From Clostridium sp. BNL1100 (GTDB lineage: Bacteria; Bacillota; Clostridia; Acetivibrionales; DSM-1351): a stretch of DNA of 64,000 bases. Of the stretch, positions 16,395 through 29,226 are shown one piece after another (the first letter of the stretch is position 1; each line of letters begins with the position of its first letter). The stretch spans positions 3,105,001 through 3,169,000 of the forward strand of contig NC_016791.1 in assembly GCF_000244875.1 (NCBI RefSeq), given 5' to 3'. The position numbers and the translations under genes were made by a program. The notes below the pieces were generated by a model that was not told the origin of the DNA, did no database searches, and worked only from the letters and a program-made list of their open reading frames with translations.

Positions 16395-17741
16395 CTACTT
16401 CATACGCTTCTTCGCAAGTTCCAATAATTTTTGTTTTTCATTAAGCTCCGGACATTCCAATACACAATCGCATAAATAATCCAGCATTTCTCGTATTTCT
16501 ATGCCGGGTTTCATTCCAAGCAAAAGTATCAGATCATCTCCGTTGACAGCCATATCTTTTTTGTTCAAGCACTGCTGTTCACTTTTTATGTCTGAATAAA
16601 TCTTATCTATTTTTATCCATTTTATAATCCGCTCCGGAAGAAAATCCGGATTCTGAGCCATTTTATCGGCCTTCTGGACCTTCAGCAATAATGGAAACAA
16701 TTCATCACCAATTTTATTTACTGCCTTTCTTATAGATTTTGGAGTATCCTCTATATCCATATCGTGGTGTTTTACAAGCAAAACAATCTTTTTTATTGAT
16801 TCCTTGTCAAATCTCAACCGATTAAGTACTTTTTCCGCAATTTGACTGCTTACTGCCTGATGCCCGTAAAAATGATCTATTCCTTTGGCATCAGTTGTTT
16901 TTCTTGGTGGTTTACCCACATCATGCAGAAGCATTGTCCACCTGAGAATATGATCATTATCAATACTTTTTACCGCATACATTGTGTGGTCTGCTACATT
17001 GTAAACATGATAAGGATTTATCTGTTCAGTTTTATAGCACCTCTCAAACTCAGGAAGAATATATGGCAATAGACCTGTCTGGTGCAGATAGTTGAAATGT
17101 AAAGGATTCTCTGATACCAACGTTTTATTCAGCTCATCCCTTATCCTCTCACTGCTAATATTGGCTATAAGTGCCGAATTGTTTTTTATAGCTTCAAATG
17201 TAGCTTCTTCAATGGAAAACCCCAGCTGTGCACTGAATCTTATTGCCCGCATCATACGCAAAGCATCTTCCCGGAACCTCTGCTCGGGGTCACCAACCGC
17301 TTTTATAACTTGCTTTTTTAAATCCTGTAAACCGCCGAAAAAATCAACTAGACCGTGCTCAGGATGATATGCCATGGCATTAATAGTAAAATCCCTTCTT
17401 GCCAAATCCTCTCTAAGACTGGATGTAAACTCAACCTTTTCCGGCCGGCGAAAATCTTTGTAATCTCCATCTATCCTATATGTTGTAACTTCCAAACTCA
17501 TTTCTCCTGCAAGTACAGTAACTGTACCATGCTTTATCCCTGTATCATAGGTTTTGTCAAATAATTTCTTTATATCAGCAGGTAATGCATTTGTTGTTAT
17601 GTCCCAATCATAGGGTGCCTTGCAAAGGATACTATCTCTTACGCAGCCTCCCACAAAATAAGCTTCGTAGCCGGCTTCGTTAAGCTTTTTTATAACATAT
17701 CCCGCATTTTCGGGGAACTCAAATTTTTCACATAAATTCAT
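16395..17741 (-). CDS. cca: CCA-adding tRNA nucleotidyltransferase
   Basis: A 448-residue class II nucleotidyltransferase. The catalytic head has FVGGCVRDSIL, the carboxylates in YDWDITTNA, and the RRDFTINAMAYHP segment. An HD domain (MLLHDVGKPPRKTTD) follows in the second half. It adds or repairs the 3' CCA of tRNAs. A poly(A) polymerase role cannot be excluded by sequence alone. AAAGGT lies upstream of the ATG at 17741. Two tRNA genes with encoded CCA lie just downstream. Confidence 0.9.
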   Translation of the reverse strand: MNLCEKFEFPENAGYVIKKLNEAGYEAYFVGGCVRDSILCKAPYDWDITTNALPADIKKLFDKTYDTGIKHGTVTVLAGEMSLEVTTYRIDGDYKDFRRPEKVEFTSSLREDLARRDFTINAMAYHPEHGLVDFFGGLQDLKKQVIKAVGDPEQRFREDALRMMRAIRFSAQLGFSIEEATFEAIKNNSALIANISSERIRDELNKTLVSENPLHFNYLHQTGLLPYILPEFERCYKTEQINPYHVYNVADHTMYAVKSIDNDHILRWTMLLHDVGKPPRKTTDAKGIDHFYGHQAVSSQIAEKVLNRLRFDKESIKKIVLLVKHHDMDIEDTPKSIRKAVNKIGDELFPLLLKVQKADKMAQNPDFLPERIIKWIKIDKIYSDIKSEQQCLNKKDMAVNGDDLILLLGMKPGIEIREMLDYLCDCVLECPELNEKQKLLELAKKRMK

Positions 17742-17830
17742 ACATATACCTTTTTAACGTATTTTAATAATTAATAGTAATTGTATCACAATATTCAATT
17801 TCTGATACATAATAACTTATATACTTTGCT

Positions 17831-18205
17831 TCATATACTATTATGTACAAAGGCTGTGACAGCTTCAAGAGGAATCTCTGCGATTGTCCCGATTGTTTGG
17901 TTGTAAGGACAAATAGTGCAAAACAGAAAATTAACTCTCTTCCCGCTACAAGAATTTCCCAAGGAACATTCCGGCGGTGCAGACGGCAGTATTAAAAGTT
18001 TTAAGTATGCGTCCGTTTGAAGTAGCAAAACACCTGTAAATCCGTTCCCGGCAGCTCCTCCTGAATTGACAAATACGGTTACCGTCTGTCCCTCATATTC
18101 TCGATAATTTATATGTTGCTTTTTTATACATGGACTTTTCTCAGGAACTATAATTTGTACTTTTTCTGATTTGGCCTTACTTCTCTTTCTTTGGGTTAAA
18201 CTCAT
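17831..18205 (-). CDS. Hypothetical Cys-containing protein, 124 residues
   Basis: I do not recognise this protein. It has a very basic N terminus (about residues 1-20, KRSKAKSEK), a middle part with Gly/Ala-rich VFVNSGGAAGNGFTGVLLL and a cluster of cysteines (SLGNSCSGKRVNFLFCTICPYNQ). There is no signal peptide or clear membrane helix. A good GGAGG precedes the ATG at 18205. It is divergent from the 39-residue membrane ORF at 18384 and separate from cca. A spore-surface or nucleic-acid-binding role is possible but unsupported. Confidence 0.6.
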   Translation of the reverse strand: MSLTQRKRSKAKSEKVQIIVPEKSPCIKKQHINYREYEGQTVTVFVNSGGAAGNGFTGVLLLQTDAYLKLLILPSAPPECSLGNSCSGKRVNFLFCTICPYNQTIGTIAEIPLEAVTAFVHNSI

Positions 18206-18383
18206 ACATGCCTCCGTTTACCTTAAAGAGTTTTATATCTTATTATATTTTCTTTAACGTATAATGCTAATCAAAAATTAAAAGATGTGTAACACAATTT
18301 ATCAGCAATGAATACTATGTTATTAGCCATTTAGTTACCAAGCTAAAAATTTAACATTAATCTTTGGAGGGAGTTGTGTACCT

Positions 18384-18503
18384 ATGTCTGACAAGAAAGG
18401 TTTCTTAGGTGGATTTAACGGCTGTATCGATGAAAGAGTAATTTTCGCTCTTATTATTATCTTTATTATCAGCGTCTGTTGCGGAAATAAGCATGACTGC
18501 TAA
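18384..18503 (+). CDS. 39-residue Cys-rich membrane mini-protein
   Basis: Reading from the ATG at 18384 gives MSDKKGFLGGFNGCIDERVI, then a hydrophobic run (FALIIIFIISVCCG) and a short NKHDC tail. It is a single-span peptide with four cysteines. GGAGGG lies 12 nt upstream, a long spacing, and a strong terminator follows directly, so it looks like a real monocistronic unit. Similar tiny hydrophobic Cys/Gly proteins occur in spore-formers, but I cannot assign a family. Confidence 0.6.
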   Translation: MSDKKGFLGGFNGCIDERVIFALIIIFIISVCCGNKHDC

Positions 18504-18506
18504 TGA

Positions 18507-18546
18507 AAATGGCCTAAGGAGCTACATAAGCTTCTTAGGCCATTTT
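18507..18546. terminator. Bidirectional terminator between the mini-protein and terC
   Basis: The arms AAAATGGCCTAAG and CTTAGGCCATTTT are complementary, with A and T runs on both flanks. It serves the plus-strand 39-residue ORF and the minus-strand terC gene, which converge here. Confidence 0.85.
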
Positions 18547-18554
18547 AAGCTTTT

Positions 18555-19418
18555 TTAAAGGTCTACTCTTTTAAGCTCTATTTCTTTTTTCTTCTTTTCC
18601 TCGTTTTTTGACTTAAATACAGAGAAAATTACGCTGGCTACTAATATTGTAAATATTGTAAGCAGTGAGTAAAGTATAGGTATTTCAAGGTCAAAGAACA
18701 AAATGCCAAGTTTTACACCTGTAAATACAAGTATAAGTGCTACACCGTATTTCACATACTTGAATCTTTCCTGCAATGCTCCGAGAACAAAATATAAGCT
18801 CCTGAGTCCCAATATGGCAAATATATTTGATGTATAAACTATAAACGGGTCAGTTGATATTGAAAAAATAGCAGGTATTGAATCTATTGCAAACAGGATA
18901 TCCGAGGATTCAATAAGTACGAGTATTGCCAGCAGAGGAGTTGCATATTTTTTACCATTTTCTACGATAAAGAATTTCTCTTCGTGCATCTTGTCTGTCA
19001 TAGGTAAAAATTTACCCATTATCTTTAATACTTTATTATCCTTGTGGTCCACAGGTTTTTCGTGACCAAACATCATCTTGCAGCCGCTTATTATCAATAT
19101 TACTCCGAAGATATACAGAATAAAGTGAATCTTGTTAACAAGAGTTATTCCCAAAACTATAAATATCAGTCTTAAAACTATAGCTCCAAATATTCCATAG
19201 TTCAAAACTCTTCTCTGATAAGCCGGCTGAATTCCAAAGCTTGAGAATAAGATAAGGAACAGGAACAGGTTATCAACGCTGAGACTTAATTCAATAACAT
19301 ACCCGCCAAGGAATTGTGATGCTTTGGCAGGGCCCTCAATCAGCAGAATTCCGATATTAAATATTATGGCTAATGCCATCCAGAATCCAACCCATTTCAG
19401 TGCTTTTTTAGTAGACAT
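18555..19418 (-). CDS. TerC/Alx family integral membrane protein
   Basis: A 287-residue protein with about nine membrane helices. Family hallmarks are the acidic membrane motifs ELSLSVDNLFLFLILF and LIESSDILFAIDSIPAIF, and GLRSLYFVLGAL. TerC/Alx proteins act in Mn2+ export or metal loading of exported enzymes in several bacteria, and names based on tellurite resistance are historical. A yybP-ykoY manganese riboswitch upstream supports a metal role. The ATG at 19418 follows AGGGGGT. The C-terminal tail is Lys/Glu-rich. Confidence 0.92.
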   Translation of the reverse strand: MSTKKALKWVGFWMALAIIFNIGILLIEGPAKASQFLGGYVIELSLSVDNLFLFLILFSSFGIQPAYQRRVLNYGIFGAIVLRLIFIVLGITLVNKIHFILYIFGVILIISGCKMMFGHEKPVDHKDNKVLKIMGKFLPMTDKMHEEKFFIVENGKKYATPLLAILVLIESSDILFAIDSIPAIFSISTDPFIVYTSNIFAILGLRSLYFVLGALQERFKYVKYGVALILVFTGVKLGILFFDLEIPILYSLLTIFTILVASVIFSVFKSKNEEKKKKEIELKRVDL

Positions 19419-19497
19419 TTTTTACCCCCTAGTTAGTTTTTATTTAATATTGCCAGTCTATATATACTTCATACAATTTGCCGGAGATATATATAAA

Positions 19498-19632
19498 CAA
19501 AAAGACCCTGAATGTATAAAAGCACTACATTCAAGGTCTTGCTTTCCATATGGAGAATAAAGCCAGGCTCTTTTTTAAAGCCGGTTGTTGACTTTATCGC
19601 TTATAAGCTACTCCCCTTTACTTTAAATGTAG
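19498..19632 (-). ncRNA. yybP-ykoY (Mn2+) riboswitch with intrinsic terminator
   Basis: The minus-strand leader of terC contains the hallmark AAAGGGGAGTAGC (around 19609-19621), then an internal stem pairing AAGCCGG/GAGCC-CTGGCTTT, and a distal GCAAGACCTTG. The GCAAGACC strand also forms the 5' side of a hairpin (19498-19540, CCTTGAATGT/ACATTCAGGG) ending in a T run. That is the expected expression platform. yybP-ykoY RNAs sense Mn2+ and usually turn genes on. Location ahead of a terC gene is a classic association. Confidence 0.85.
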
Positions 19633-19683
19633 TTTATCAAAGTATGAGTATTTAGTCAATAATTTATCCATAAAGTTACATTT

Positions 19684-19730
19684 AAAAGAGGCCGTTTGCA
19701 AAAATGTACATTTCTGCAAACGGCCTCTTA
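19684..19730 (-). terminator. Terminator-like hairpin after the TnpB-like gene
   Basis: The arms TAAGAGGCCGTTTGCA and TGCAAACGGCCTCTTTTA pair over about 16 bp with a 14-nt loop. It lies 81 nt past the stop of the TnpB-like gene and before the terC riboswitch. The trailing T run is short. Because TnpB guide RNAs lie at the 3' end of the gene, this hairpin could also belong to such an RNA. Confidence 0.6.
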
Positions 19731-19810
19731 AACTAGATAGCTGCACTTTTTTATATGTTTTAACATATAAGCTTACTCTGTAAGCAATGTGCGGCAGCAA
19801 AAGCACAAGA

Positions 19811-21286
19811 TTAAATAATTTCTATATTTGAAAAATTACTTTTAACTAATTTATCAAGAATACTTTTTATATCTTTAAAATTAAGCTTTGAGTTAATGTA
19901 GTTATCCTCTTTTTTATCCAGTAACCTCTTTACCTCTTCCTTCAGCCGGTCATAAGGATTTTCATTTTTGTGAACAAACATATCTAAACCAATAAGTTCA
20001 TTATTAAGATACATACCTTCCGGCGTCTTTCTAGCCTTTAACTTGAAGGTAGTCTTTTCATACTTTATTAGTTTTACAGCAAGATTTCTGCTGCCAAGTT
20101 CATCCATACTATAGCTGGCCCCACAGGTTGTGCAGATAAACATGGTTTCTGAAAACCTGTTTTTTCTGGTGTTGCTTCCGCATACACAACAGGTGTGGAA
20201 AATATCAACGGAACTCACTTTTGCAGGAACGGGCAATCCCTTTTGCGGAAGCTTGTATTCCAGTACTCTTACAAGCTCATTGTACATTTTACAACCATAT
20301 GCAGGTTTATGTACTGTTCCTTCTTCCCTCCAACTAAGTTTGTCACCCTTACCCACCAGATTCTGAAGAATTACCATTGATTTGTTTTTAAAAGCTATAT
20401 CTGCTATAGTGTTTGCCATCTTACATATAATTTGTTTTCTATCATTTGTATTTCGGCAGTTTTCAAGGCTTCCCTTTTTAATTGAGTTTCCTTTTTCATC
20501 TACAATTGTGTAATTAATATCGTTCCTGATACCCCTGCTGACACCCATAAACGTTGTAGTTTTTACTTCCTGCTCCTCGGGAAGGTTTATACTCATGCTC
20601 AGAAAGTACTCGTTATTTTTATACAACAGGCGTGCCGTTCTAAGAATTTCAGGCCTGTCAATAGCCTGTTTAAGCATATTTTCCTGCCATTTTCCGAATG
20701 AAAGGGGAACTATAATGAAGGTTTCCCTTTTTAAGCATTTGGCAGGCTCGGGATTTTTTGATATATATATAAGTTCTCTTTTATTAGCTGATATTTTACG
20801 TCCCTTGGCATTCTTTATATTCATCAGGAACAGTTTAGCAAAATACTTGTTACTGTCAGGGTCATAAAGCAAGCAAAAACTTCTTTTTGTGTCATACCTG
20901 CAAAAATAAATAGGTCTTAGCTTTTCCTGCACCTGAGCATTATCCTGTTTGAAATTCGGAAACACCATATCGGGCTTTGTTTGCTTCTGAACAAAATAAC
21001 TTGCCATCGTCATCCCAAAGTCAAGCTTCAAAGAGTCCTTGAAAGGCTGAACGTCAAACTCGTTCAATTCATTTGATTTTTTACTGTCTATCCATTTTGA
21101 AAGAGACAGTGTACTGTAAGTCCCCTTAGGGGATTTATAATTACTTTCAATATCATCTATATTATCAAAAGCAGTTTTTAATAAATAATTAAATGCATTA
21201 TTATAGTTTTCAAATGCTTTTTGTATAATTTCACGTTTAAGCTTACCGGGTTTATGAAGTTTTAAATGTATTGTCCTTAGACCCAA
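19811..21286 (-). CDS. TnpB-like protein with inactivated RuvC site, last gene of the hydrogenase operon
   Basis: A 491-residue protein of the TnpB/Cas12 family, normally an RNA-guided nuclease. RuvC-I reads MGVSRGIRN with S250 where the catalytic Asp belongs. RuvC-II reads MVILQNL with Q308 instead of Glu. RuvC-III (SMDELGSRN) keeps D395 but lacks the usual Asn after it. The zinc finger is intact (C366-x2-C369, C385-x2-C388). A tail of about 85 residues follows, and the N-terminal part is longer than in ordinary TnpB. The TTG start has GGGAGGGGG overlapping the phosphatase stop 15 nt upstream, so the two look translationally coupled. No tnpA or insertion-sequence ends are visible. A domesticated, RNA-guided DNA-binding regulator is my inference. 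Confidence 0.8.
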   Translation of the reverse strand: MGLRTIHLKLHKPGKLKREIIQKAFENYNNAFNYLLKTAFDNIDDIESNYKSPKGTYSTLSLSKWIDSKKSNELNEFDVQPFKDSLKLDFGMTMASYFVQKQTKPDMVFPNFKQDNAQVQEKLRPIYFCRYDTKRSFCLLYDPDSNKYFAKLFLMNIKNAKGRKISANKRELIYISKNPEPAKCLKRETFIIVPLSFGKWQENMLKQAIDRPEILRTARLLYKNNEYFLSMSINLPEEQEVKTTTFMGVSRGIRNDINYTIVDEKGNSIKKGSLENCRNTNDRKQIICKMANTIADIAFKNKSMVILQNLVGKGDKLSWREEGTVHKPAYGCKMYNELVRVLEYKLPQKGLPVPAKVSSVDIFHTCCVCGSNTRKNRFSETMFICTTCGASYSMDELGSRNLAVKLIKYEKTTFKLKARKTPEGMYLNNELIGLDMFVHKNENPYDRLKEEVKRLLDKKEDNYINSKLNFKDIKSILDKLVKSNFSNIEII

Positions 21287-21301
21287 GAAAGCTCCCCCTC
21301 C

Positions 21302-22474
21302 CTAGCAATACTCTATACTGATATGTTTTCCCGTATGTGTAAGCAATGCGGCCAGTTCTTCCACTAGCTTGAATTTCATTCCCATGTTAAGTGGAAATTC
21401 AGGATTCTGATGTGCCGGATTCATTGCCCTTCCAACAAAGAAATATATACTGGTACTCTCCTCAAGGAGCATTTTTGCCAGCCTTGAAGCACCATCCTTT
21501 TTATTAAGCTTCAGCATATCTCCCATACCGCTGTCAGGCGAAACGCAGGCTTTAAGCAAATCAAGTGTTTTTCTAAGGGTCAGTACGCCTTCTGTAGTCA
21601 GGTTAATACCTTCTATCTCTGCCGTAGGAGGAACCGCAGGATTAAAGTATTCTATAGATGTCTTAATTTCCTTCCCCAAAACTCTGGCAACAATTTGTGA
21701 CGTAGTACCGCCACAAATAACTTTTTTACCTTCGTTTCCTATAAATCGGGATACAATCTCCTCATCCCGCGCAGAATCCACAGGCGGTCCGATCATCAGA
21801 TTCAGCTTCACAGGTTTTTTTGCTTTTAGGGTAACAACTGTAGTGTCATCGCCGGGTTCATGGGAATAAAGGTTGTCACAGGCTGACAACAAGAGTTTTG
21901 CGAGTGTCTTTGAGGATGCATCCTTTTTATAGGTCTTTTGTATATACTCACTGACATTATCCCACTGCCAGCCCAAATTTAGGGTCTGGCCTATTCCGGC
22001 ATGGATAACTCCGTCGCTTATCATTACAAACAAGTCATCAGGACTGACTTTGAACCTGGCTTCTTTTATAAGTTTATCATTAACGACCCTGCTTTCTGTC
22101 TCCAGGCTCATTATCTTACCTTTTCTCAGCCTTACTACAGAAGGATTATCAAATTCGGCCAAGTATCCTTCACCGTTGTTGAATATCTGTATTATGGAGA
22201 AAGTTGAATATGCAACCCCTCGCTCCTTGCAAACAGGGAGGGTTTTTGCAACCGTATTAACAGCCTCTTCTATATCCAGACCATTTGACATAATCGTACC
22301 TATGATCTTTGAAGTAAGCGTTGCAAGTATATTTGCCTTCACACCACTTCCCAGACCATCAGCCAAAACCACTACCACTGAATCAGGGCTTCTGATTATT
22401 TCAACCTTGTCTCCGCATAATTCTTCCCTATATTTATTTATACTTTCGTAACTTACATCAATATACAGGCTCAC
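21302..22474 (-). CDS. PP2C/SpoIIE-type phosphatase linked to sensory hydrogenase
   Basis: A 390-residue protein. Residues about 1-215 form a PP2C-fold (SpoIIE-like) Ser/Thr phosphatase with metal-binding motifs VVVLADGLGSGVKA, FVMISDGV and EPGDDTTVV. The C-terminal 170 residues are a separate conserved-looking domain that I cannot name. The GTG start at 22474 overlaps the hydS stop (TAGTG), so the pair is coupled. Phosphatase-linked (group C3) sensory [FeFe]-hydrogenases are a known class. The substrate phosphoprotein, probably a STAS or kinase pathway, is not encoded nearby. Confidence 0.85.
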   Translation of the reverse strand: MSLYIDVSYESINKYREELCGDKVEIIRSPDSVVVVLADGLGSGVKANILATLTSKIIGTIMSNGLDIEEAVNTVAKTLPVCKERGVAYSTFSIIQIFNNGEGYLAEFDNPSVVRLRKGKIMSLETESRVVNDKLIKEARFKVSPDDLFVMISDGVIHAGIGQTLNLGWQWDNVSEYIQKTYKKDASSKTLAKLLLSACDNLYSHEPGDDTTVVTLKAKKPVKLNLMIGPPVDSARDEEIVSRFIGNEGKKVICGGTTSQIVARVLGKEIKTSIEYFNPAVPPTAEIEGINLTTEGVLTLRKTLDLLKACVSPDSGMGDMLKLNKKDGASRLAKMLLEESTSIYFFVGRAMNPAHQNPEFPLNMGMKFKLVEELAALLTHTGKHISIEYC

Positions 22475-24198
22475 TATAATTCACCCATCTCTGACATAAT
22501 GGATTTTTTAAGCTTGGTTAAAGCCACCTTTGTTTCGGCAGTAGTTTCACCAAGAAGACTGGCAATCTCCTGAGCCACTGTCATTTGTTTTTCCATAATT
22601 TTCTGAGCAATATCTATATTCTGAGAACGACTTTCCAGAATTTTCTGCCTCTGGGCCTCCTCTTTTGTAATATCATTTACTATAACTATAACAGTATTAT
22701 GCTGTTTTACGTTTATGATGGATTGTTTGACCACCATACCGTAACTTTCATAAACATATTTTTCATCATATACATTTTCAGCACCTTCCAATACCTGTTC
22801 AAAATCGTCGCAGGGAAGTATTTCAGAAATACTTCTGCCATTCATGTTTTTGGCTCCCAGGTTGAACATCTGCTGGGCTGACTTGTTAAGTTCCTGTATT
22901 TTAAGACTCTCGTCCAGTGCAAAAATAGCATATGGTGTATAATTTATAATTATATTTGAAATAGACTCAGCCCTTTCCCTCATATAGGGCAGACACATAT
23001 GAACCTGTGCTTTTCCGTGAAATACGGCTGTAGCCTTTTCCCTGCAGGAGTGATAACCGCAAGCCCCGCAGTTGAGCTCTTTGTCTTTGCTGAATTTTCC
23101 AATACTATTTAATATACCTTGTATTACTGCCTCTGACGGTACTTCCAGCTTCTTTGACCTGTCAACGAATTTCTTTGATAAGTCGACCTTGGTCAAAGCC
23201 ATTACAGAGTTTGTCAAACCTGTGTCCGTTTGAACCCCTGTTCTTTTTGCATAGTTTAAAAGTCTCTCTCTAGCAGTGAGAAATCCTCCGGGTACATGTT
23301 TCATACAGGGGCCTCCCAAACAGCCACCCTTACAACTGCTCATTTCAATCAGGTAATTTTCAATGTCACCTTCTACTATGGATTGAAGAACATCCATGCA
23401 TCGTTCAACACCGTCTACACTGATAGACCTGTAGTTCTTTTTATATTTTCTGTCAATAGTCTTTAAAATTCCGCCGGGTACGGGATATATTCTCGCTGAC
23501 GTATCAAAGCTTTTTATACCGTCAACGATTTCATTTGACTCGTACAGGCCTTCTTCTTCAAACCACTTGTCCAAATCATCAAAAGTTACTACCGCATCAA
23601 TTTGACTACCGTTTTGAAGATCATTAAATTCTTCTTTCTTTGAAATACAAGGTCCTATAAATACTACTCTGATTCTTTGTCCATATGTTTCCCTGAGCAT
23701 TTTAGCATGGGCTATCATGGGAGAAACTACCGGAGCAAGCTGATCCAACAGCTGAGGATAATATTTTTCTATAAGTAATATTATTGATGAGCAGCAGCTG
23801 GTTATGATATTTTTCATTTTCTTCTGCTTCAAAAGACTTTCATACTGCCTTGATACCTGATAAGCACCATTAGCTGTTCCTTCTATGTGTGTAAAACCGA
23901 GCTTTTTCAGGGCATAATAAACCCACTTTTCATCATGGTCAAATGCAGAAATAAATGAAGGTGCAAGACTTACATAAACTTTTTCACGCTTCTGTATAAA
24001 TTTTTTAACTTTTTCAACATCGCTGTTAACGCTTTTTGCATTCTGAGGACATACTGTGAGGCAATTTCCGCAGAGCATGCACTCGTCATGTATGATTTCA
24101 GCCTGATCGTTCTTAAATGCAATAGCGTTTACAGGGCAGCTTCGTATACATTTATAACAGTTTTTACAGTTCGCTTCTTTAAATTGAATTATGCTCAT
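22474..24198 (-). CDS. hydS: Sensory [FeFe]-hydrogenase-like protein with PAS domain (HydS type)
   Basis: A 574-residue protein. Two [4Fe-4S] motifs (C11/14/17/21 and C40/43/46/50) precede an H-cluster domain with TSCC (C135-C136), GPCISKKEE (C184) and CKGGC (C289, C293). A further four-Cys Fe-S motif follows (C377, C380, C385, C402), then a PAS domain (about 412-515) and a coiled coil to the end. The H-cluster surroundings differ from catalytic HydA (SCCSS instead of SCCPAW), as in group C sensors. It probably senses H2 or redox state and signals to the phosphatase downstream. GGAGG lies before the ATG. Confidence 0.88.
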   Translation of the reverse strand: MSIIQFKEANCKNCYKCIRSCPVNAIAFKNDQAEIIHDECMLCGNCLTVCPQNAKSVNSDVEKVKKFIQKREKVYVSLAPSFISAFDHDEKWVYYALKKLGFTHIEGTANGAYQVSRQYESLLKQKKMKNIITSCCSSIILLIEKYYPQLLDQLAPVVSPMIAHAKMLRETYGQRIRVVFIGPCISKKEEFNDLQNGSQIDAVVTFDDLDKWFEEEGLYESNEIVDGIKSFDTSARIYPVPGGILKTIDRKYKKNYRSISVDGVERCMDVLQSIVEGDIENYLIEMSSCKGGCLGGPCMKHVPGGFLTARERLLNYAKRTGVQTDTGLTNSVMALTKVDLSKKFVDRSKKLEVPSEAVIQGILNSIGKFSKDKELNCGACGYHSCREKATAVFHGKAQVHMCLPYMRERAESISNIIINYTPYAIFALDESLKIQELNKSAQQMFNLGAKNMNGRSISEILPCDDFEQVLEGAENVYDEKYVYESYGMVVKQSIINVKQHNTVIVIVNDITKEEAQRQKILESRSQNIDIAQKIMEKQMTVAQEIASLLGETTAETKVALTKLKKSIMSEMGEL

Positions 24199-24283
24199 AA
24201 AGTCGCCTCCATAGCCCTGACGGCTCTTATGCAGTCATTAGTATATTCTGCCTGTCGCCCTATGTAAATTGTAATAATTTACA

Positions 24284-24544
24284 TTATCCCTTCTTGCCTT
24301 CAATTGTGTTAATTACTTTCTCTGTAAAGAAACTTTCAGCATTTATTACGCCTACATCTCCATAAAAAGTATCGCCTATTTTAACGCAAACACCTGTTGT
24401 GCAATGCCCCATGCAAAAGGATGCCTTTAATTCAACTTTGCTTTCAAGATTATTTTCCTTAATCATTCTTTGAAAGCAGTTGATTATCTGATAAGACCCC
24501 TTAAGATGGCAGGAACTACCAACACAAACATATATATCAAGCAT
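24284..24544 (-). CDS. Thioredoxin-like [2Fe-2S] ferredoxin
   Basis: The protein is 86 residues from the ATG at 24544 (GGTGG 5 nt upstream); a GTG at 24553 is a less likely start. The cysteines CVGSSCHLKG and CMGHCTTGVC match the [2Fe-2S] site of the NuoE/HydC C-terminal thioredoxin fold without the N-terminal helical domain. It is likely an electron carrier or assembly partner of the hydrogenase cluster. It lies between hydA and hydS in the same orientation. Confidence 0.82.
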   Translation of the reverse strand: MLDIYVCVGSSCHLKGSYQIINCFQRMIKENNLESKVELKASFCMGHCTTGVCVKIGDTFYGDVGVINAESFFTEKVINTIEGKKG

Positions 24545-24674
24545 ATATTCCACCGCCTATGTTTGTTAAACAAATAACAATATAATTGTAAATTATATAT
24601 TTTTTTATGTCAAATCCATTTAGTTACTAAAAATCTAATTATATATATGAAGGTCTTTAATTTAAGCTTATGGT

Positions 24675-24863
24675 CTATTTACGTCCTGAAAATGCAGGTA
24701 CCATACCTAAAAACAGCGGGCTTAATTCACAATAGGATTTATTACAGCTGTTACAGCAATACTCCATATCTGTTTTTGCTTCATCAACCATCATTAACTG
24801 CATGCAAATGCTAATATCATTGCCTGCTACATTACACAACATATTGTTTTCGTTATTCATCAT
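24675..24863 (-). CDS. Cys-rich mini-protein of the hydrogenase operon
   Basis: A 62-residue protein with a Met/Asn-rich N terminus and six cysteines, four of them in EYCCNSCNKSYCELSP. There is no membrane helix or known domain. GGGAGG is placed 5 nt before the ATG at 24863, so translation is credible. It sits between hydA and the small [2Fe-2S] protein. A metal- or cluster-binding role is suggested by composition and context only. Confidence 0.6.
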   Translation of the reverse strand: MMNNENNMLCNVAGNDISICMQLMMVDEAKTDMEYCCNSCNKSYCELSPLFLGMVPAFSGRK

Positions 24864-24985
24864 GGTATCCTCCCTTTGCCTTATTGGCTTATAATTGTTT
24901 TTTTGCTTCTTTAATATATGAGATTGTTAAAACAGATGGGGCCAAAGACTTTTAACCTTTGAACCACATCTGTAAGTTTAATATT

Positions 24986-26674
24986 TTAATGTTTTCCGTC
25001 TCTGTGAAGAATATGTCTGTTGCTGTTTAGAATGCCGTTATACAAAGCATCTATAGTTGGATTGTCATCAGAACGTTTTATCGGCAAGGACTTATCTACC
25101 TTGTATATACCCTTTGCTCTTAATTTTCTTACATTTTCATTCTGTGGAATCGGCTGTCCTGCACCGCCTATACACCCTCCCGGGCAAGCCATTACTTCAA
25201 TAAAGTCGAATTTTTCTTCCCCGCGTTTTATTTTTCTGATTAGTTTTTCAGCATTTTTAAGTCCATGAACTACTCCGATTCTTACTGTTCTGCCGTCAAT
25301 TTCAGCTGTTGCTTCCTTGACACCTTCCATACCCCTCACTCCTGAATATGAGATGCCTTTGAGTGTTGAAGCGTTTCTTTCCTTGTAGTAATAACGAAGT
25401 ACTGCTTCGGACACACCTCCGCTTACACCGAATATTACACCTGCACCGCTGGTAAATCCGAAAGGCATATCAATTGCTTCGTCTTCAAGCTCATTAAACA
25501 CTATACCGTTTTCCTGTATCATAATTGCCAGTTCCTGTGTTGTTATGACCATATCTACCTGTCTTTCACCGTTTATAGTATTTTCAGGTCTTGAAGCTTC
25601 ATATTTCTTAGCGGTACATGGCATTATGGCGATAACAATGTTTTCTTTTTCGTTGGAAGACTGTTCCTTTTTAAACTGTTCCTTTATAACTGCTCCAAAC
25701 ATCTGCTGTGGAGACAGGCAGGAGGACACATTTTCCATGAGCTCAGGATGCTTTTGCTCCGCGTATTTGAACCAAGCAGGACAACATGAGCTGAACAAAG
25801 GTAGCTTTTCCTTTCTCTGAATTCTGTCCATGAGCTCTTCCGCTTCCTCTATAACAGTCAGGTCCGCACCAACAGCTGTATCAAATACCTGATCAAAACC
25901 AAGTTTTCTGAGTGCTGCCACAATCTTACCCATTGATATCTCACCGGGTTGAAGTCCAAAATCTTCTCCGATTGCAACACGTACGGCAGGTGCTATCTGA
26001 GCTATTACACGCTTGTTTTTGTTCTGAAGTGCCTCATATGCCCTGTCAATATCTTTCTTTATCATTAATGCCCCGGTAGGACAAACAACCCTGCACTGAC
26101 CGCAGTTAACGCAATCCACTTCCTGCAATGATTTATTGAAGGCAGTTGTTACCTGAAGATTTGATCCTCTATAAGCAAAGTCCAGTACCCCAACGCCTTG
26201 AATTTCCTGACATGCTCTTACACAGTCTCCGCAAAGAATACACTTGTTTGGATTTCTGATTATTGATGGCCCAAGGTCATCTATAGGCATTTCTTTCTTT
26301 TCCTGTCCAAACCTTACTTTCTTTACTCCAACTTTTAAAGCTATTTCCTGCAGCTTACATCTTCCGCTCTTTTCACAGGTTGTACAATCCCTGTCATGAT
26401 TGGCAAGAAGAAGCTCCAATATCATTTTTCTGTGCTTTTTGAGCTTATCTGTATTTGTCCATACCTCCATACCATCCTTTGGAGGCGTTGAACATGAGGT
26501 TATTGTACTGCCCCACTTATCCTCAACCATACACATTCTGCACGCACCGTAAACACTAAGTTCTGAGTGGTAGCAGAAGGTCGGAAGCTCAATACCTGCT
26601 TTTCTGATTACTGCCAGTATATTTTTTTCATCTGTATATTCAACCAGCTGTCCGTCAATTATCATAGTTCCCAT
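24986..26674 (-). CDS. hydA: [FeFe]-hydrogenase catalytic subunit
   Basis: A 562-residue enzyme that reduces protons to H2. The N-terminal [2Fe-2S] plant-type domain (C34, C45, C48, C61) is followed by the His/Cys [4Fe-4S] site (NHDRDCTTCEKSGRC) and two [4Fe-4S] motifs (CILCGDCVRAC, CVNCGQCRVVC). The H-cluster domain has SSCCPAW, MPCTAKKYE and MACPGGCIGG. With hydB and hydC it makes the NADH/ferredoxin-coupled (electron-bifurcating type) complex. AAAGGAGG precedes the ATG, and hydB ends 6 nt upstream. Confidence 0.96.
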   Translation of the reverse strand: MGTMIIDGQLVEYTDEKNILAVIRKAGIELPTFCYHSELSVYGACRMCMVEDKWGSTITSCSTPPKDGMEVWTNTDKLKKHRKMILELLLANHDRDCTTCEKSGRCKLQEIALKVGVKKVRFGQEKKEMPIDDLGPSIIRNPNKCILCGDCVRACQEIQGVGVLDFAYRGSNLQVTTAFNKSLQEVDCVNCGQCRVVCPTGALMIKKDIDRAYEALQNKNKRVIAQIAPAVRVAIGEDFGLQPGEISMGKIVAALRKLGFDQVFDTAVGADLTVIEEAEELMDRIQRKEKLPLFSSCCPAWFKYAEQKHPELMENVSSCLSPQQMFGAVIKEQFKKEQSSNEKENIVIAIMPCTAKKYEASRPENTINGERQVDMVITTQELAIMIQENGIVFNELEDEAIDMPFGFTSGAGVIFGVSGGVSEAVLRYYYKERNASTLKGISYSGVRGMEGVKEATAEIDGRTVRIGVVHGLKNAEKLIRKIKRGEEKFDFIEVMACPGGCIGGAGQPIPQNENVRKLRAKGIYKVDKSLPIKRSDDNPTIDALYNGILNSNRHILHRDGKH

Positions 26675-26680
26675 TGTTAT

Positions 26681-28552
26681 TTACGCCTCCTTTATTGCTG
26701 CAAATGGACATGCTTCCAGACAGGCACCGCACTTGATACATTTTGACTGATTAATTGTATACGGTTCCTTAATTTTTCCTTCGATTGCCTGAACTGGACA
26801 TATTCTGGCACATTTGCTGCAGCCCTTGCATTTTTCCTTTTCTATTACTATAGAAGCTAAAGCTTTACAGGTATGTGTTTTGCACTTCTTATCTATAACG
26901 TGTTCCAAGTATTCATCCTTAAAATATTTCAATGTACTTACGACAGGGCTTGCAGCTGACTTACCTAGTCCGCATAAAGCCGTACTGCTTATGGTATCTG
27001 CCAGTTCTTCGAGTAAATCAAGCTCTTCTTTAGTACCTTTTCCGTTTACTATCTTTTCAAGGATTTCAAGCATTCTCTTGGTTCCTTCACGGCATGGCAC
27101 ACATTTTCCGCAGGATTCGTTTTGTGTGAAATTCATGAAGAACCTTGCTACTTCAACCATACAGGTGTCTTCATCCATTACTACTAGTCCGCCTGAACCA
27201 ATCATTGCTCCTACTTTTTTAAGGGAATCGAAGTCCAACGGCAATTCCAGATGTTCCTCTGTGAGACATCCTCCGGAAGGGCCTCCTATCTGAACTGCCT
27301 TAAATTTCTTGTTGTCTTTGATACCGCCACCGATATCAAATATTACTTCCCTCAGGGTTGTTCCCATTGGAACTTCTATCAAACCTGTATTGTTGACGTT
27401 TCCGGTTATGGCAAAGGCTTTTGTACCCGGACTGTTTTCAGGCCCGATACCTTTGTACCATTCACTGCCGTTGGTGATAATTAAAGGAACATTGGCGTAT
27501 GTTTCTACATTGTTAAGTACTGTCGGCTTTTCCCAAAGTCCTTTTTCCACCGTTCTTGGAGGTTTTACCCTTGGCATTCCTCTTTCGCCTTCTATTGATG
27601 CGGTTAATGCACTTCCCTCACCGCATACGAAAGCTCCTGCGCCTTTGTTTATGTTTATATCAAACGAAAATCCGGAATTTAGTATGTTCTCACCCAACAT
27701 TCCGTGCTTTCTTGCATCTTCAATAGCTATCCTTAGTCTTTCAACTGCCAGAGGATATTCTGCTCTAACATATATATATCCGGCAGTACTTTTGGTTGCA
27801 TACCCGGCAATAGTCATACCTTCGATTACACCGTGAGGATCGCCCTCCATAATACTTCTGTCCATGAAAGCTCCGGGGTCACCTTCGTCGCCGTTACAGA
27901 CAACATATTTGATTTTGCTGTCCTGCTTTAATACCTGCTGCCACTTCCTTCCGGCAGGATAACCTCCGCCCCCTCTTCCTCTGAGGTTGGAGTCCAGTAT
28001 GGACTGACATACTTCCTGAGACTCCATTTCAAACAATACTTTGCTCAGGGCCTGATAACCGCCCTTTGCAACATATTCTGCAAAGGATTCGGCATTGATG
28101 CTTCCGCAGTTTTTCAGAACCATTCTTGTCTGCTTTTTATAGAAAGGAATGTCCTCCTGTGCCTTATACACCTTGTTATCTGCCGTATACATAAGTCTTT
28201 CAACAGCTTCATTGTTTATAAGGGTTTTGTATACGATTTCTTCACAATCTTCTATCTGAACTCTCAAGTACAAGTAATTTTCAGGTTCTATTCTTACCAA
28301 AGGCCCCATTTCGCAAAAACCGTGGCAACCGCTCTTTTTAACTCCTATTCCTTCTTTTTCATAATCCAGTTCAAGATCAACCAGAAGGCCTTTTTCATCT
28401 ATAAGCTCTTTGATTCTGTTGTATATCTCTAATGATCCGCCGGCTACACAACCTGTTCCCGCACACACCAGAACCTTCTTTTTTTGTTTCTCCATTGCCT
28501 GTGCCGACCTGTCAGAAAAGGCTTTAAATTCTTGCAAATTATTAATTTTCAT
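26681..28552 (-). CDS. hydB: NADH-binding NuoF-like hydrogenase subunit
   Basis: A 623-residue flavoprotein. The N-terminal thioredoxin-like [2Fe-2S] domain (CAGTGCVAGGS, CHGFCEMGP) leads into the FMN/NADH domain (RGRGGGGYPAGRKW, GDEGDPGAFMDR), an SLBB domain and the CGKCVPCREGTKRM [4Fe-4S] site. The C terminus adds two ferredoxin clusters (CKGCSKCARIC, CIKCGACLEAC). It accepts electrons from NADH and ferredoxin for HydA. Its ATG overlaps the hydC stop by one base (TAATG). Confidence 0.95.
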   Translation of the reverse strand: MKINNLQEFKAFSDRSAQAMEKQKKKVLVCAGTGCVAGGSLEIYNRIKELIDEKGLLVDLELDYEKEGIGVKKSGCHGFCEMGPLVRIEPENYLYLRVQIEDCEEIVYKTLINNEAVERLMYTADNKVYKAQEDIPFYKKQTRMVLKNCGSINAESFAEYVAKGGYQALSKVLFEMESQEVCQSILDSNLRGRGGGGYPAGRKWQQVLKQDSKIKYVVCNGDEGDPGAFMDRSIMEGDPHGVIEGMTIAGYATKSTAGYIYVRAEYPLAVERLRIAIEDARKHGMLGENILNSGFSFDININKGAGAFVCGEGSALTASIEGERGMPRVKPPRTVEKGLWEKPTVLNNVETYANVPLIITNGSEWYKGIGPENSPGTKAFAITGNVNNTGLIEVPMGTTLREVIFDIGGGIKDNKKFKAVQIGGPSGGCLTEEHLELPLDFDSLKKVGAMIGSGGLVVMDEDTCMVEVARFFMNFTQNESCGKCVPCREGTKRMLEILEKIVNGKGTKEELDLLEELADTISSTALCGLGKSAASPVVSTLKYFKDEYLEHVIDKKCKTHTCKALASIVIEKEKCKGCSKCARICPVQAIEGKIKEPYTINQSKCIKCGACLEACPFAAIKEA

Positions 28553-29025
28553 TATCCTTCACTCCTCAAAGTCTTTATTAATTCTATTGTTGAATCCGGC
28601 GTCATTTTAGCGTGTACCTTATCATTTATTGTAATAACCGGTGCAAGTCCGCAGGCTCCCAAACAGGAAACTGTTTCAACTGTAAACAGCTTATCATCTG
28701 TAGTATGTTTGCTTTCAGACAGGCCAAGTTCTTTTCTCATTGCATTTAATATAGGAATTGATTTTCTTACATGACAAGCTGTACCGTCACATACCTTTAT
28801 AATGTATTTTCCCTTAGGAACCAAAGAAAAGTTTTCGTAAAACGTAGCTACACTGAATATCTTTGAGAGATTAATCTCCAGCTTTTCAGCTACATAATTT
28901 AAAACATCCTCGGGCAAATATTTGTATTCGTTCTGGATTTCCTGTAAAACTGCTATCAGGTGCGATTTATTATTGTCATACTTATTCAAAATCCCGTCAA
29001 CCAGACTGCATTTGCAATCATCCAT
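28552..29025 (-). CDS. hydC: NuoE-like [2Fe-2S] hydrogenase subunit
   Basis: The protein is 157 residues from the ATG at 29025, which GAGGAGGG precedes by 8 nt. A longer frame to 29064 lacks a ribosome site. It has the NuoE fold: an N-terminal helical bundle and a thioredoxin-like domain with the four ligands in CDGTACHVRKS and CLGACGLAP. It is the first gene of the hydrogenase operon and is preceded by a promoter and a Rex-like operator. Confidence 0.93.
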   Translation of the reverse strand: MDDCKCSLVDGILNKYDNNKSHLIAVLQEIQNEYKYLPEDVLNYVAEKLEINLSKIFSVATFYENFSLVPKGKYIIKVCDGTACHVRKSIPILNAMRKELGLSESKHTTDDKLFTVETVSCLGACGLAPVITINDKVHAKMTPDSTIELIKTLRSEG

Positions 29026-29077
29026 TTTGTTTTCCCTCCTCAAGTACTTGTAAAGTGCATTCACTTATCAGCTATCA

Positions 29078-29095
29078 TTGTTATTTTTTTGACAA
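29078..29095 (-). promoter_or_regulatory. Rex-like operator at the hydCBA transcription start
   Basis: TTGTTATTTTTTTGACAA matches the redox-repressor Rex consensus TTGTTAAnnnnTTAACAA at 12 of the 14 defined positions. It begins 4 nt after the predicted -10 box and would cover the start site. Rex senses the NADH/NAD+ ratio and controls fermentation genes in Clostridia, so it fits a hydrogenase that oxidises NADH. Confidence 0.65.
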
Positions 29096-29099
29096 TTTA

Positions 29100-29128
29100 A
29101 TTCTAGCCAGAGGAATACCTTCTGCCAA
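29100..29128 (-). promoter_or_regulatory. Sigma-A-type promoter of the hydrogenase operon
   Basis: TTGGCA (29123-29128), a 17-nt spacer and TAGAAT (29100-29105), each with five of six consensus bases. It ends 74 nt before the hydC ATG, directly upstream of the Rex-like site. Confidence 0.65.
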
Positions 29129-29226
29129 TGTTTATATAGAAATACAATGTCTGAAACCCAGTTATAGATAAGGTTTTTGGAATTTATTTCAAATAATTTC
29201 AAGGATAATTCGTTAAAAGAATACAA

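Follow-up and report, generated by a model that had tools for sequence, protein, structure and literature searches.

A gene for a nuclease-dead Cas12f/TnpB-like protein stands beside the genes of a sensory hydrogenase in Clostridium sp. BNL1100, within a stretch of 64,000 nucleotides (nt) that we refer to as the window (contig NC_016791.1, positions 3,105,001 to 3,169,000; coordinates without further label are those of the window). We examined this gene, a structured RNA encoded at its 3′ end and a short site upstream of hydC that matches the RNA. The gene and its neighbours are arranged as follows:

19811..21286 (-), nuclease-dead Cas12f/TnpB-like protein of 491 amino acids (aa), TTG start (profile and structure matches)
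21302..22474 (-), SpoIIE/PP2C-type phosphatase (Pfam SpoIIE, E=8e-18, residues 30-218 of 390)
22474..24198 (-), HydS-like sensory [FeFe] hydrogenase with a PAS domain (domain scan)
24284..24553 (-), small thioredoxin-like [2Fe-2S] protein, first gene of the sensor operon (domain or family models)

Profile and structure comparison both assign the protein to the TnpB/Cas12f-type fold, which is also that of TldRs. The Pfam model Cas12f1-like_TNB matches it with E=4e-6 and the NCBIfam model guided_TnpB with E=2.3e-19, the latter at 69.9 of 100 bits, below the curated cut-off. In a profile search of the Protein Data Bank (PDB), CnCas12f1 (8hr5) came first (E 5.9e-11), with OsCas12f (2.2e-10) and a TnpB (2.4e-10) close behind, and the best structural match was AsCas12f1, whose protospacer-adjacent motif (PAM) is NTTR. 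A C-terminal extension (approximately residues 415-491) exceeds the aligned range of solved Cas12f proteins. Twenty-four loci were read, namely the window, L026-L041 and L061-L067. At the RuvC-I position, 250, their proteins have Ser (16), Ala (4), Gly (2), Thr (1) or Val (1) and never Asp; the RuvC-II position, 308, is Glu in two of the 24; and the third acidic position, 395, is Asp in 12 and Glu in 12. The zinc Cys (366, 369, 385 and 388) are kept in all 24. By this alignment the RuvC active site appears lost, as in TldRs. An earlier note on this DNA had reported S250 for the RuvC-I Asp and Q308 for the RuvC-II Glu, and both residues are as it gave them. It had also counted the zinc finger and the third Asp as retained: the zinc Cys and D395 are indeed present in the window protein, whereas the third Asp, with its 12 D and 12 E, is no invariant of the family.

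The gene is present in 10 of 11 genomes of the genus, including the window's own, and the other nine copies are 61-96% identical. Within the order, 18 of 58 genomes gave a match, one of which (G003) was a zinc-finger-only match of another TnpB-like protein, leaving 17. Across the class, an alignment profile with at most three candidates scored per genome matched 14 of 391 drawn genomes (E≤1e-30), and seven of the 14 belong to other orders. The gene accompanies those for PP2C and HydS at all 24 loci (HydS being truncated by the stretch end in L030 and L062). At seven of them a gene for approximately 870 aa intervenes between PP2C and the TnpB-like gene; its product is an AdhE-type protein in L035, L036 and L038 (domain or family models), matches that AdhE at 82-84% in L061-L063, and was judged by size only in L040. 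In the window the HydS-like hydrogenase lies upstream of the phosphatase, and the gap between phosphatase and TnpB-like gene is 15 nt, which bears out the spacing described earlier. The ratio of nonsynonymous to synonymous substitution rates (dN/dS) is 0.07-0.10 against four close relatives, and by this measure the gene is under purifying selection.

A scan of ten window proteins encoded around the gene found no transposase, and 17000-25000 contains no direct repeat of 20 nt or longer, hence no CRISPR (clustered regularly interspaced short palindromic repeats) array there. Two peptide patterns confirmed no mobile relative in viral contigs. Matches occur in 308 plasmid and seven phage records; none extends over 80% of the protein, and those listed are 23-29% identical. 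We therefore do not see an IS200/IS605 or IS607 element, with tnpA and mobility, at this place: the neighbours are constant at 24 of 24 loci and the collections searched hold no close mobile relative. The earlier note had likewise seen no tnpA or element boundary and had argued against simple decay, with which the low dN/dS and the constant HydS-PP2C neighbours agree; the phosphatase-TnpB pair that it singled out is conserved, together with HydS, at every locus read across Clostridia. What it named as speaking against its proposal, homologues with intact DED residues and an adjacent tnpA, or scattered locations, was not seen, the RuvC-I Asp occurring in 0 of 24 members and the HydS-PP2C linkage in 24 of 24. 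Another TnpB-like match in the same genome (L002, genome positions 1760174-1760431) carries an internal stop codon in the matched stretch.

Directly 3′ of the gene the window encodes a putative guide RNA with the following parts:

19728..19810 (-), guide-RNA-like structured RNA (covariation; fold z -6.9, computed with part of the terminator hairpin included; counterparts at 24 of 24 loci)
19788..19807 (-), P1 hairpin, its loop carrying GCTGC, the 5′ half of a pseudoknot (alignment, sequence)
19772..19784 (-), P3 hairpin CTTAC-AGA-GTAAG (four of five pairs changed on both sides)
19751..19770 (-), variable hairpin (sequence, fold)
19740..19744 (-), GCAGC, the 3′ half of the pseudoknot (two of five pairs changed on both sides, 100% of cells paired)
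19734..19739 (-), proposed guide UAUCUA (match to hydC promoter sites)
19684..19727 (-), intrinsic-terminator-like hairpin and T run after the RNA (read from sequence)

This conserved structured RNA is found at all 24 loci, beginning 0-153 nt 3′ of the stop codon, and its elements follow one order: P1 with its loop GCUGC, the CUUAC-AGA-GUAAG hairpin, the variable hairpin, and GCAGC, which pairs with the P1 loop. Directly after the pseudoknot GCAGC comes UAUCU (UAUCC in L035). In an alignment of 21 distinct rows, 99.0% of cells are paired, a value biased towards structure since the RNA blocks were cut to fit the helices; stronger evidence comes from the two-sided changes, which affect nine of 15 pairs versus 4.5 in shuffles. 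The covariation score was reached by 0 of 500 shuffles, a test that related rows inflate. A terminator-like hairpin can be seen by eye after the RNA in the window and at many loci, and is not clear in L037 and L039. The RNA model R1, which comprises 10 base pairs (bp) without the pseudoknot, has one strong copy in the window's genome; three extra matches at unannotated loci (E 0.011, 0.032 and 6.7) were taken as chance. No Rfam family matched the RNA at its gathering threshold, and below threshold there were only chance-like microRNA models over the terminator hairpin. A predicted guide RNA beside the 3′ end, with counterparts at every locus and covariation, is a further trait shared with TldRs.

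The proposed target lies ahead of the genes for a trimeric hydrogenase, in a promoter with these features, to which the second Rex-like box is added:

24986..29064 (-), hydA, hydB and hydC, genes of a trimeric [FeFe] hydrogenase and proposed target (domain scan)
29165..29173 (-), proposed target CCT-TATCTA, that is, target-adjacent motif (TAM) and protospacer (match to RNA, conservation)
29100..29128 (-), -35/-10-like elements TTGGCA-17-TAGAAT of hydCBA (read from sequence)
29078..29095 (-), Rex-box-like palindrome that follows the target-site start by 78 bp (sequence, consensus)
24563..24580 (-), Rex-box-like palindrome in the sensor-operon promoter (sequence, consensus)

Rex boxes and promoter elements are named here by their likeness to the general consensus. 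In a k-mer count over ten divergent hydC promoters, from which family f66 was omitted, CCGTATCTA and its parts top the 7-, 8- and 9-mers. CC[GT]TATCTA lies approximately 106-118 bp before hydC in most promoters, and further away where the gene start differs. Five held-out hydC orthologues outside f66 contained CC[GT]TATCT in three cases and CCATATCT in two (G137, G207), after which the site pattern was widened from CC[GT] to CC[AGT]. A TATCT site flanked by CC[AGT] is found upstream of hydC in 20 of the 23 genomes with a hydC orthologue; G033 has no such orthologue, and its hydC paralogue is without the site. As a control for the post-hoc choice of guide, 5-mers of the window RNA were scanned behind CC[AGT], the RNA itself being removed from two promoters: the 5-mer directly after the pseudoknot scored 20 of 23, the next one 7, and 53 of 80 scored 0, as did the reverse complement of TATCT. 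A guide made of the 13-16 nt after the scaffold was rejected (in the window it matched only itself, and in the genome it gave 138 matches versus 234 in the reversed control); the guide was settled at 6-8 nt because the terminator-like hairpin starts within a few bases in the window. In silico, a TAM-flanked host promoter site matches the proposed guide, as in TldRs, with three exceptions. It had been suggested from the sequence that a guide RNA near the 3′ end could target hydrogenase or fermentation promoters, and the predicted RNA with its covarying pseudoknot, the sites in hydCBA promoters and, in some genomes, a site at an Fe-alcohol-dehydrogenase-like gene give that suggestion computational support.

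Guide and target agree where the targets differ. Both read TATCTTA in G026 and TATCTGA in G164 and G111; elsewhere position 6 of the target is A and that of the guide A or G, the G forming a G-T wobble. Watson-Crick runs counted from position 1 are 6-8 long in 15 of 21 genomes, and with wobbles reach at least 6 in 19 of 21, the shortest being those of G005 (3) and G048 (4). Position 6 matches in 17 of 21 genomes versus 12.6 in shuffles (p 0.003), or in 12 of 16 without five near relatives (p 0.009), and position 7 in 9 of 21 versus 6.1 (p 0.03), all of these p values ignoring kinship. The CC[A/G/T] next to the site is the PAM reported, in excerpts of PMC11224995, for CnCas12f1 (NCCD) and RhCas12f1 (CCD), OsCas12f having TTN there. 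We regard this agreement with the CnCas12f1 PAM as suggestive only.

Thirty of the 41 genomes of the order that lack the gene were tested. CC[GT]TATCTA was found within 600 bp of the best HydC homologue in none of the 30 (one stretch being 253 bases long), and the looser CC[AGT]TATCT gave two matches (L118, L119), both more than 400 bp upstream. Four of the 30 carry the phosphatase at E≤1e-40, with hydC directly after it (0-47 nt, from the coordinates of the matches); the 26 others have a best HydC homologue of 41-49% identity. We infer that genomes tend to have the gene if hydCBA forms a unit apart from the phosphatase; f66 (L066, L067), where hydBA, hydS, PP2C and the gene all run in one direction, is an exception.

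Sites of this type also precede other genes. The exact pattern AAACCGTATCTRAWA, derived from hydC sites, has seven matches in 12 divergent gene-bearing genomes, all of them approximately 110-450 nt upstream of a fitting gene and in that gene's direction: hydC in G013 and G041 (both used to make the pattern), hydC paralogues twice in G207 (one known from the earlier promoter comparison), a weak-HydA-match protein in G048, and an Fe-type alcohol dehydrogenase and the [2Fe-2S]-hydS operon in G137. Four of the seven are independent of the earlier steps. With one mismatch allowed the set grows to 61 sites, 30 of which, all seven exact ones included, were examined by open reading frames and 31 by coordinates at most. 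Over all loci CC[GT]TATCT[AGT] occurs 41 times versus 44 in the reversed control, which is no excess; since the counts equal the control, the evidence rests on position and conservation and not on abundance. The hydS-operon promoter, a first guess at the target, was set aside for the window, where it has a Rex-like box and no TATCT site was seen. TATCT-type sites do exist before the hydS operon in G137 and G230. In the latter, tandem CCGTATCT(A/T) sites stand 30 bp apart (L064, 2702 and 2732) before its own hydS operon, and autoregulation is possible there. Paralogous hyd operons at L158 (G008) and L174 (G207) carry the same CCGTATCTA site, as if one regulator served more than one hydrogenase. 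An ATA-CCGTATCTAACAATC site lies just 3′ of the guide-like RNA in G028 (L036, 5683, minus strand), with no obvious target gene.

The distance from site to Rex-like palindrome is 78-79 bp in all nine promoters of the genus in which the box was found (in G008 the pattern missed it), and 88-90 bp in 11 divergent hydC promoters that had been selected for a site and a box 70-100 bp apart (the box of L083 is degenerate). These two classes differ by approximately one helical turn. In the 11 divergent promoters the columns CC-[G9 A2]-TATCT are otherwise invariant. Other spacings were found at the paralogue L158 (54 or 75 bp) and at the hydS promoters of G137 and G230 (26, 56, 60 or 90 bp), and no Rex-like box was found for L180, L185 and L194. 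Approximately 40 bp separate the site in the window from the -35-like element downstream of it, so that the site falls outside the core promoter; to judge by their sequence, the -35 elements are weak. A complex approximately 80-90 bp upstream of the start would be better placed to touch RNA polymerase than to block its path, and the predicted geometry fits activation better than repression. Rex-like boxes at both the hydS-operon and hydCBA promoters suggest joint NADH control.

Taken together, the Cas12f-type fold, the loss of the RuvC-I Asp, purifying selection, the HydS-PP2C linkage, the cognate RNA and the matching site make it, in our judgement, very likely that this nuclease-dead Cas12f/TnpB descendant is an RNA-guided transcription factor with a guide of 6-8 nt that links H2 sensing to hydrogenase expression. 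Should that hold, we lean, without great assurance, towards an activator of hydCBA. The RNA would belong to the transcript of the sensor operon or form its 3′ end; it would bind the protein and bring it to the hydCBA promoter by pairing with 6-8 bp of DNA next to a CCD TAM. Bound at fixed spacing, approximately 80-90 bp before the start site, the complex would most likely aid RNA polymerase. HydS, through H2 or redox state, and the phosphatase would set the level or activity of the factor, next to Rex acting on NADH, and H2- and alcohol-forming enzymes would as an outcome track H2 and redox state. The widest version of this proposal is tentative, and we see slightly more reason to doubt than to accept it: an ancient, vertically inherited RNA-guided activator of central metabolism, with a 9-bp CC[A/G/T]-TATCTA motif, a 6-8 nt guide and a regulon of hydCBA, hydS, hydrogenase paralogues and Fe-alcohol dehydrogenase, which would be the missing output of HydS.

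Several results weigh against an RNA-guided factor. The guide-target pairing is short, the guide of G048 has a mismatch at position 5, and positions 8 and 9 match in 2 and 5 of 21 genomes, fewer than in shuffles. Three of the 23 hydC promoters depart from the pattern: that of G005 reads CCT-TATTTA, and those of G200 and G127, both of f66, are without the site; no target was found for these two genomes, a longer-guide search giving 15 matches versus 10 in the reversed control. UAUCU is kept in 23 of the 24 RNAs, those of genomes in which the site was not found included, and could be scaffold. Held-out orthologues fitted the originally defined pattern in three of five cases only, and one-mismatch sites are not enriched (61 versus 56 reversed in the 12 genomes, 79 versus 115 in G000). 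The PAM argument is soft too, as the profile score of OsCas12f (TTN) is close to that of CnCas12f1, and the PAM of AsCas12f1, which matches best in structure, is NTTR.

The same RNA-guided factor might repress hydCBA, as known TldRs repress: excerpts of PMC13418256 describe fliC- and csrA-linked repressors for which 6-nt guides suffice. Against repression stand the place of the window site, some 40 bp upstream of the -35-like element and outside the core promoter, the two spacing classes about one helical turn apart, which are more usual for activators, and the weak look of the -35 elements; we find a repressor unlikely, though it deserves serious weight. Alternatively, CCGTATCTA could be the site of an ordinary DNA-binding regulator, its likeness to the RNA being chance or a decoy and the protein-RNA complex doing something else. 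This would suit the UAUCU of f66 RNAs, where the promoter site was not found, and the lack of enrichment of one-mismatch sites. However, no stretch of the RNA but the one after the pseudoknot matches, guide and target share their base at position 6 even in genomes with a deviating target, CC[AGT] corresponds to a PAM known from Cas12f, and 0 of 30 gene-less genomes have CC[GT]TATCTA within those 600 bp, though 26 of their HydC homologues are just 41-49% identical and in the other four hydC comes directly after the phosphatase gene. On balance we judge an ordinary regulator decidedly improbable. A decaying or passively carried, functionless insertion-sequence gene, to which the TnpB-like sequence, the lost catalytic residues and a transposase not seen nearby might point, is scarcely credible in view of the dN/dS of 0.07-0.10, the neighbours constant at 24 of 24 loci, the covarying RNA, viral contigs without a relative by two peptide patterns, and listed plasmid and phage matches that are partial and 23-29% identical.

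TldRs linked to oppF exist as well. The RNA-guided factor proposed here would resemble TldRs in being TnpB-derived and RuvC-inactivated, with a 3′ guide RNA and promoter targeting through a very short seed. It differs from them in its linkage to a sensory hydrogenase and PP2C, in a single guide and target kept across many families, in a site upstream of the core promoter, in the CC[A/G/T] TAM and in the C-terminal extension. Natural dCas12f-guide RNA complexes (PDB 9n9c, 9n9m) are tied to sigma factors; unlike there, no sigma-factor gene was found among the ten window proteins scanned, the flanks of other loci being only partly annotated, and the promoters have -10-like elements of their own. 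RhCas12f1 originates from a Ruminiclostridium. The protein resembles CnCas12f1 and RhCas12f1 in its top PDB profile match (CnCas12f1) and in the PAM (NCCD/CCD in excerpts of PMC11224995, corresponding to CC[A/G/T]), and departs from these nucleases in that the RuvC-I Asp is gone and no repeat array lies at 17000-25000. Sensory hydrogenases are, according to excerpts of PMC3561251, usually encoded upstream of bifurcating ones, suggesting regulation, and the window likewise has a sensory hydrogenase with a PAS domain close to a bifurcating one, which it may regulate; those excerpts name a histidine/serine kinase between the two and no RNA-guided factor. We found no TnpB/Cas12f-like link to hydrogenase control in the open-access literature as judged by titles and the opening lines of abstracts, a scope mostly excluding subscription papers and bioRxiv; the sole open-access paper combining TnpB, hydrogenase and guide RNA concerns landfill viruses.

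If our proposal is true, RNA-guided transcription control reaches core energy metabolism, beyond flagellin genes, and guide and target have been maintained jointly across many Clostridia families. It would give sensory hydrogenases a concrete output and open a way to steer H2 and ethanol production in bacteria that degrade cellulose. The proposal also makes testable the minimal guide size of a natural RNA-guided factor and whether such factors can activate.

Elsewhere in the window, a weak match to the yybP-ykoY manganese riboswitch lies at 19473-19628 (minus strand), just before terC (18555-19418); it is sub-threshold, scoring 18.8 bits where the gathering score is 45, with E 0.003.
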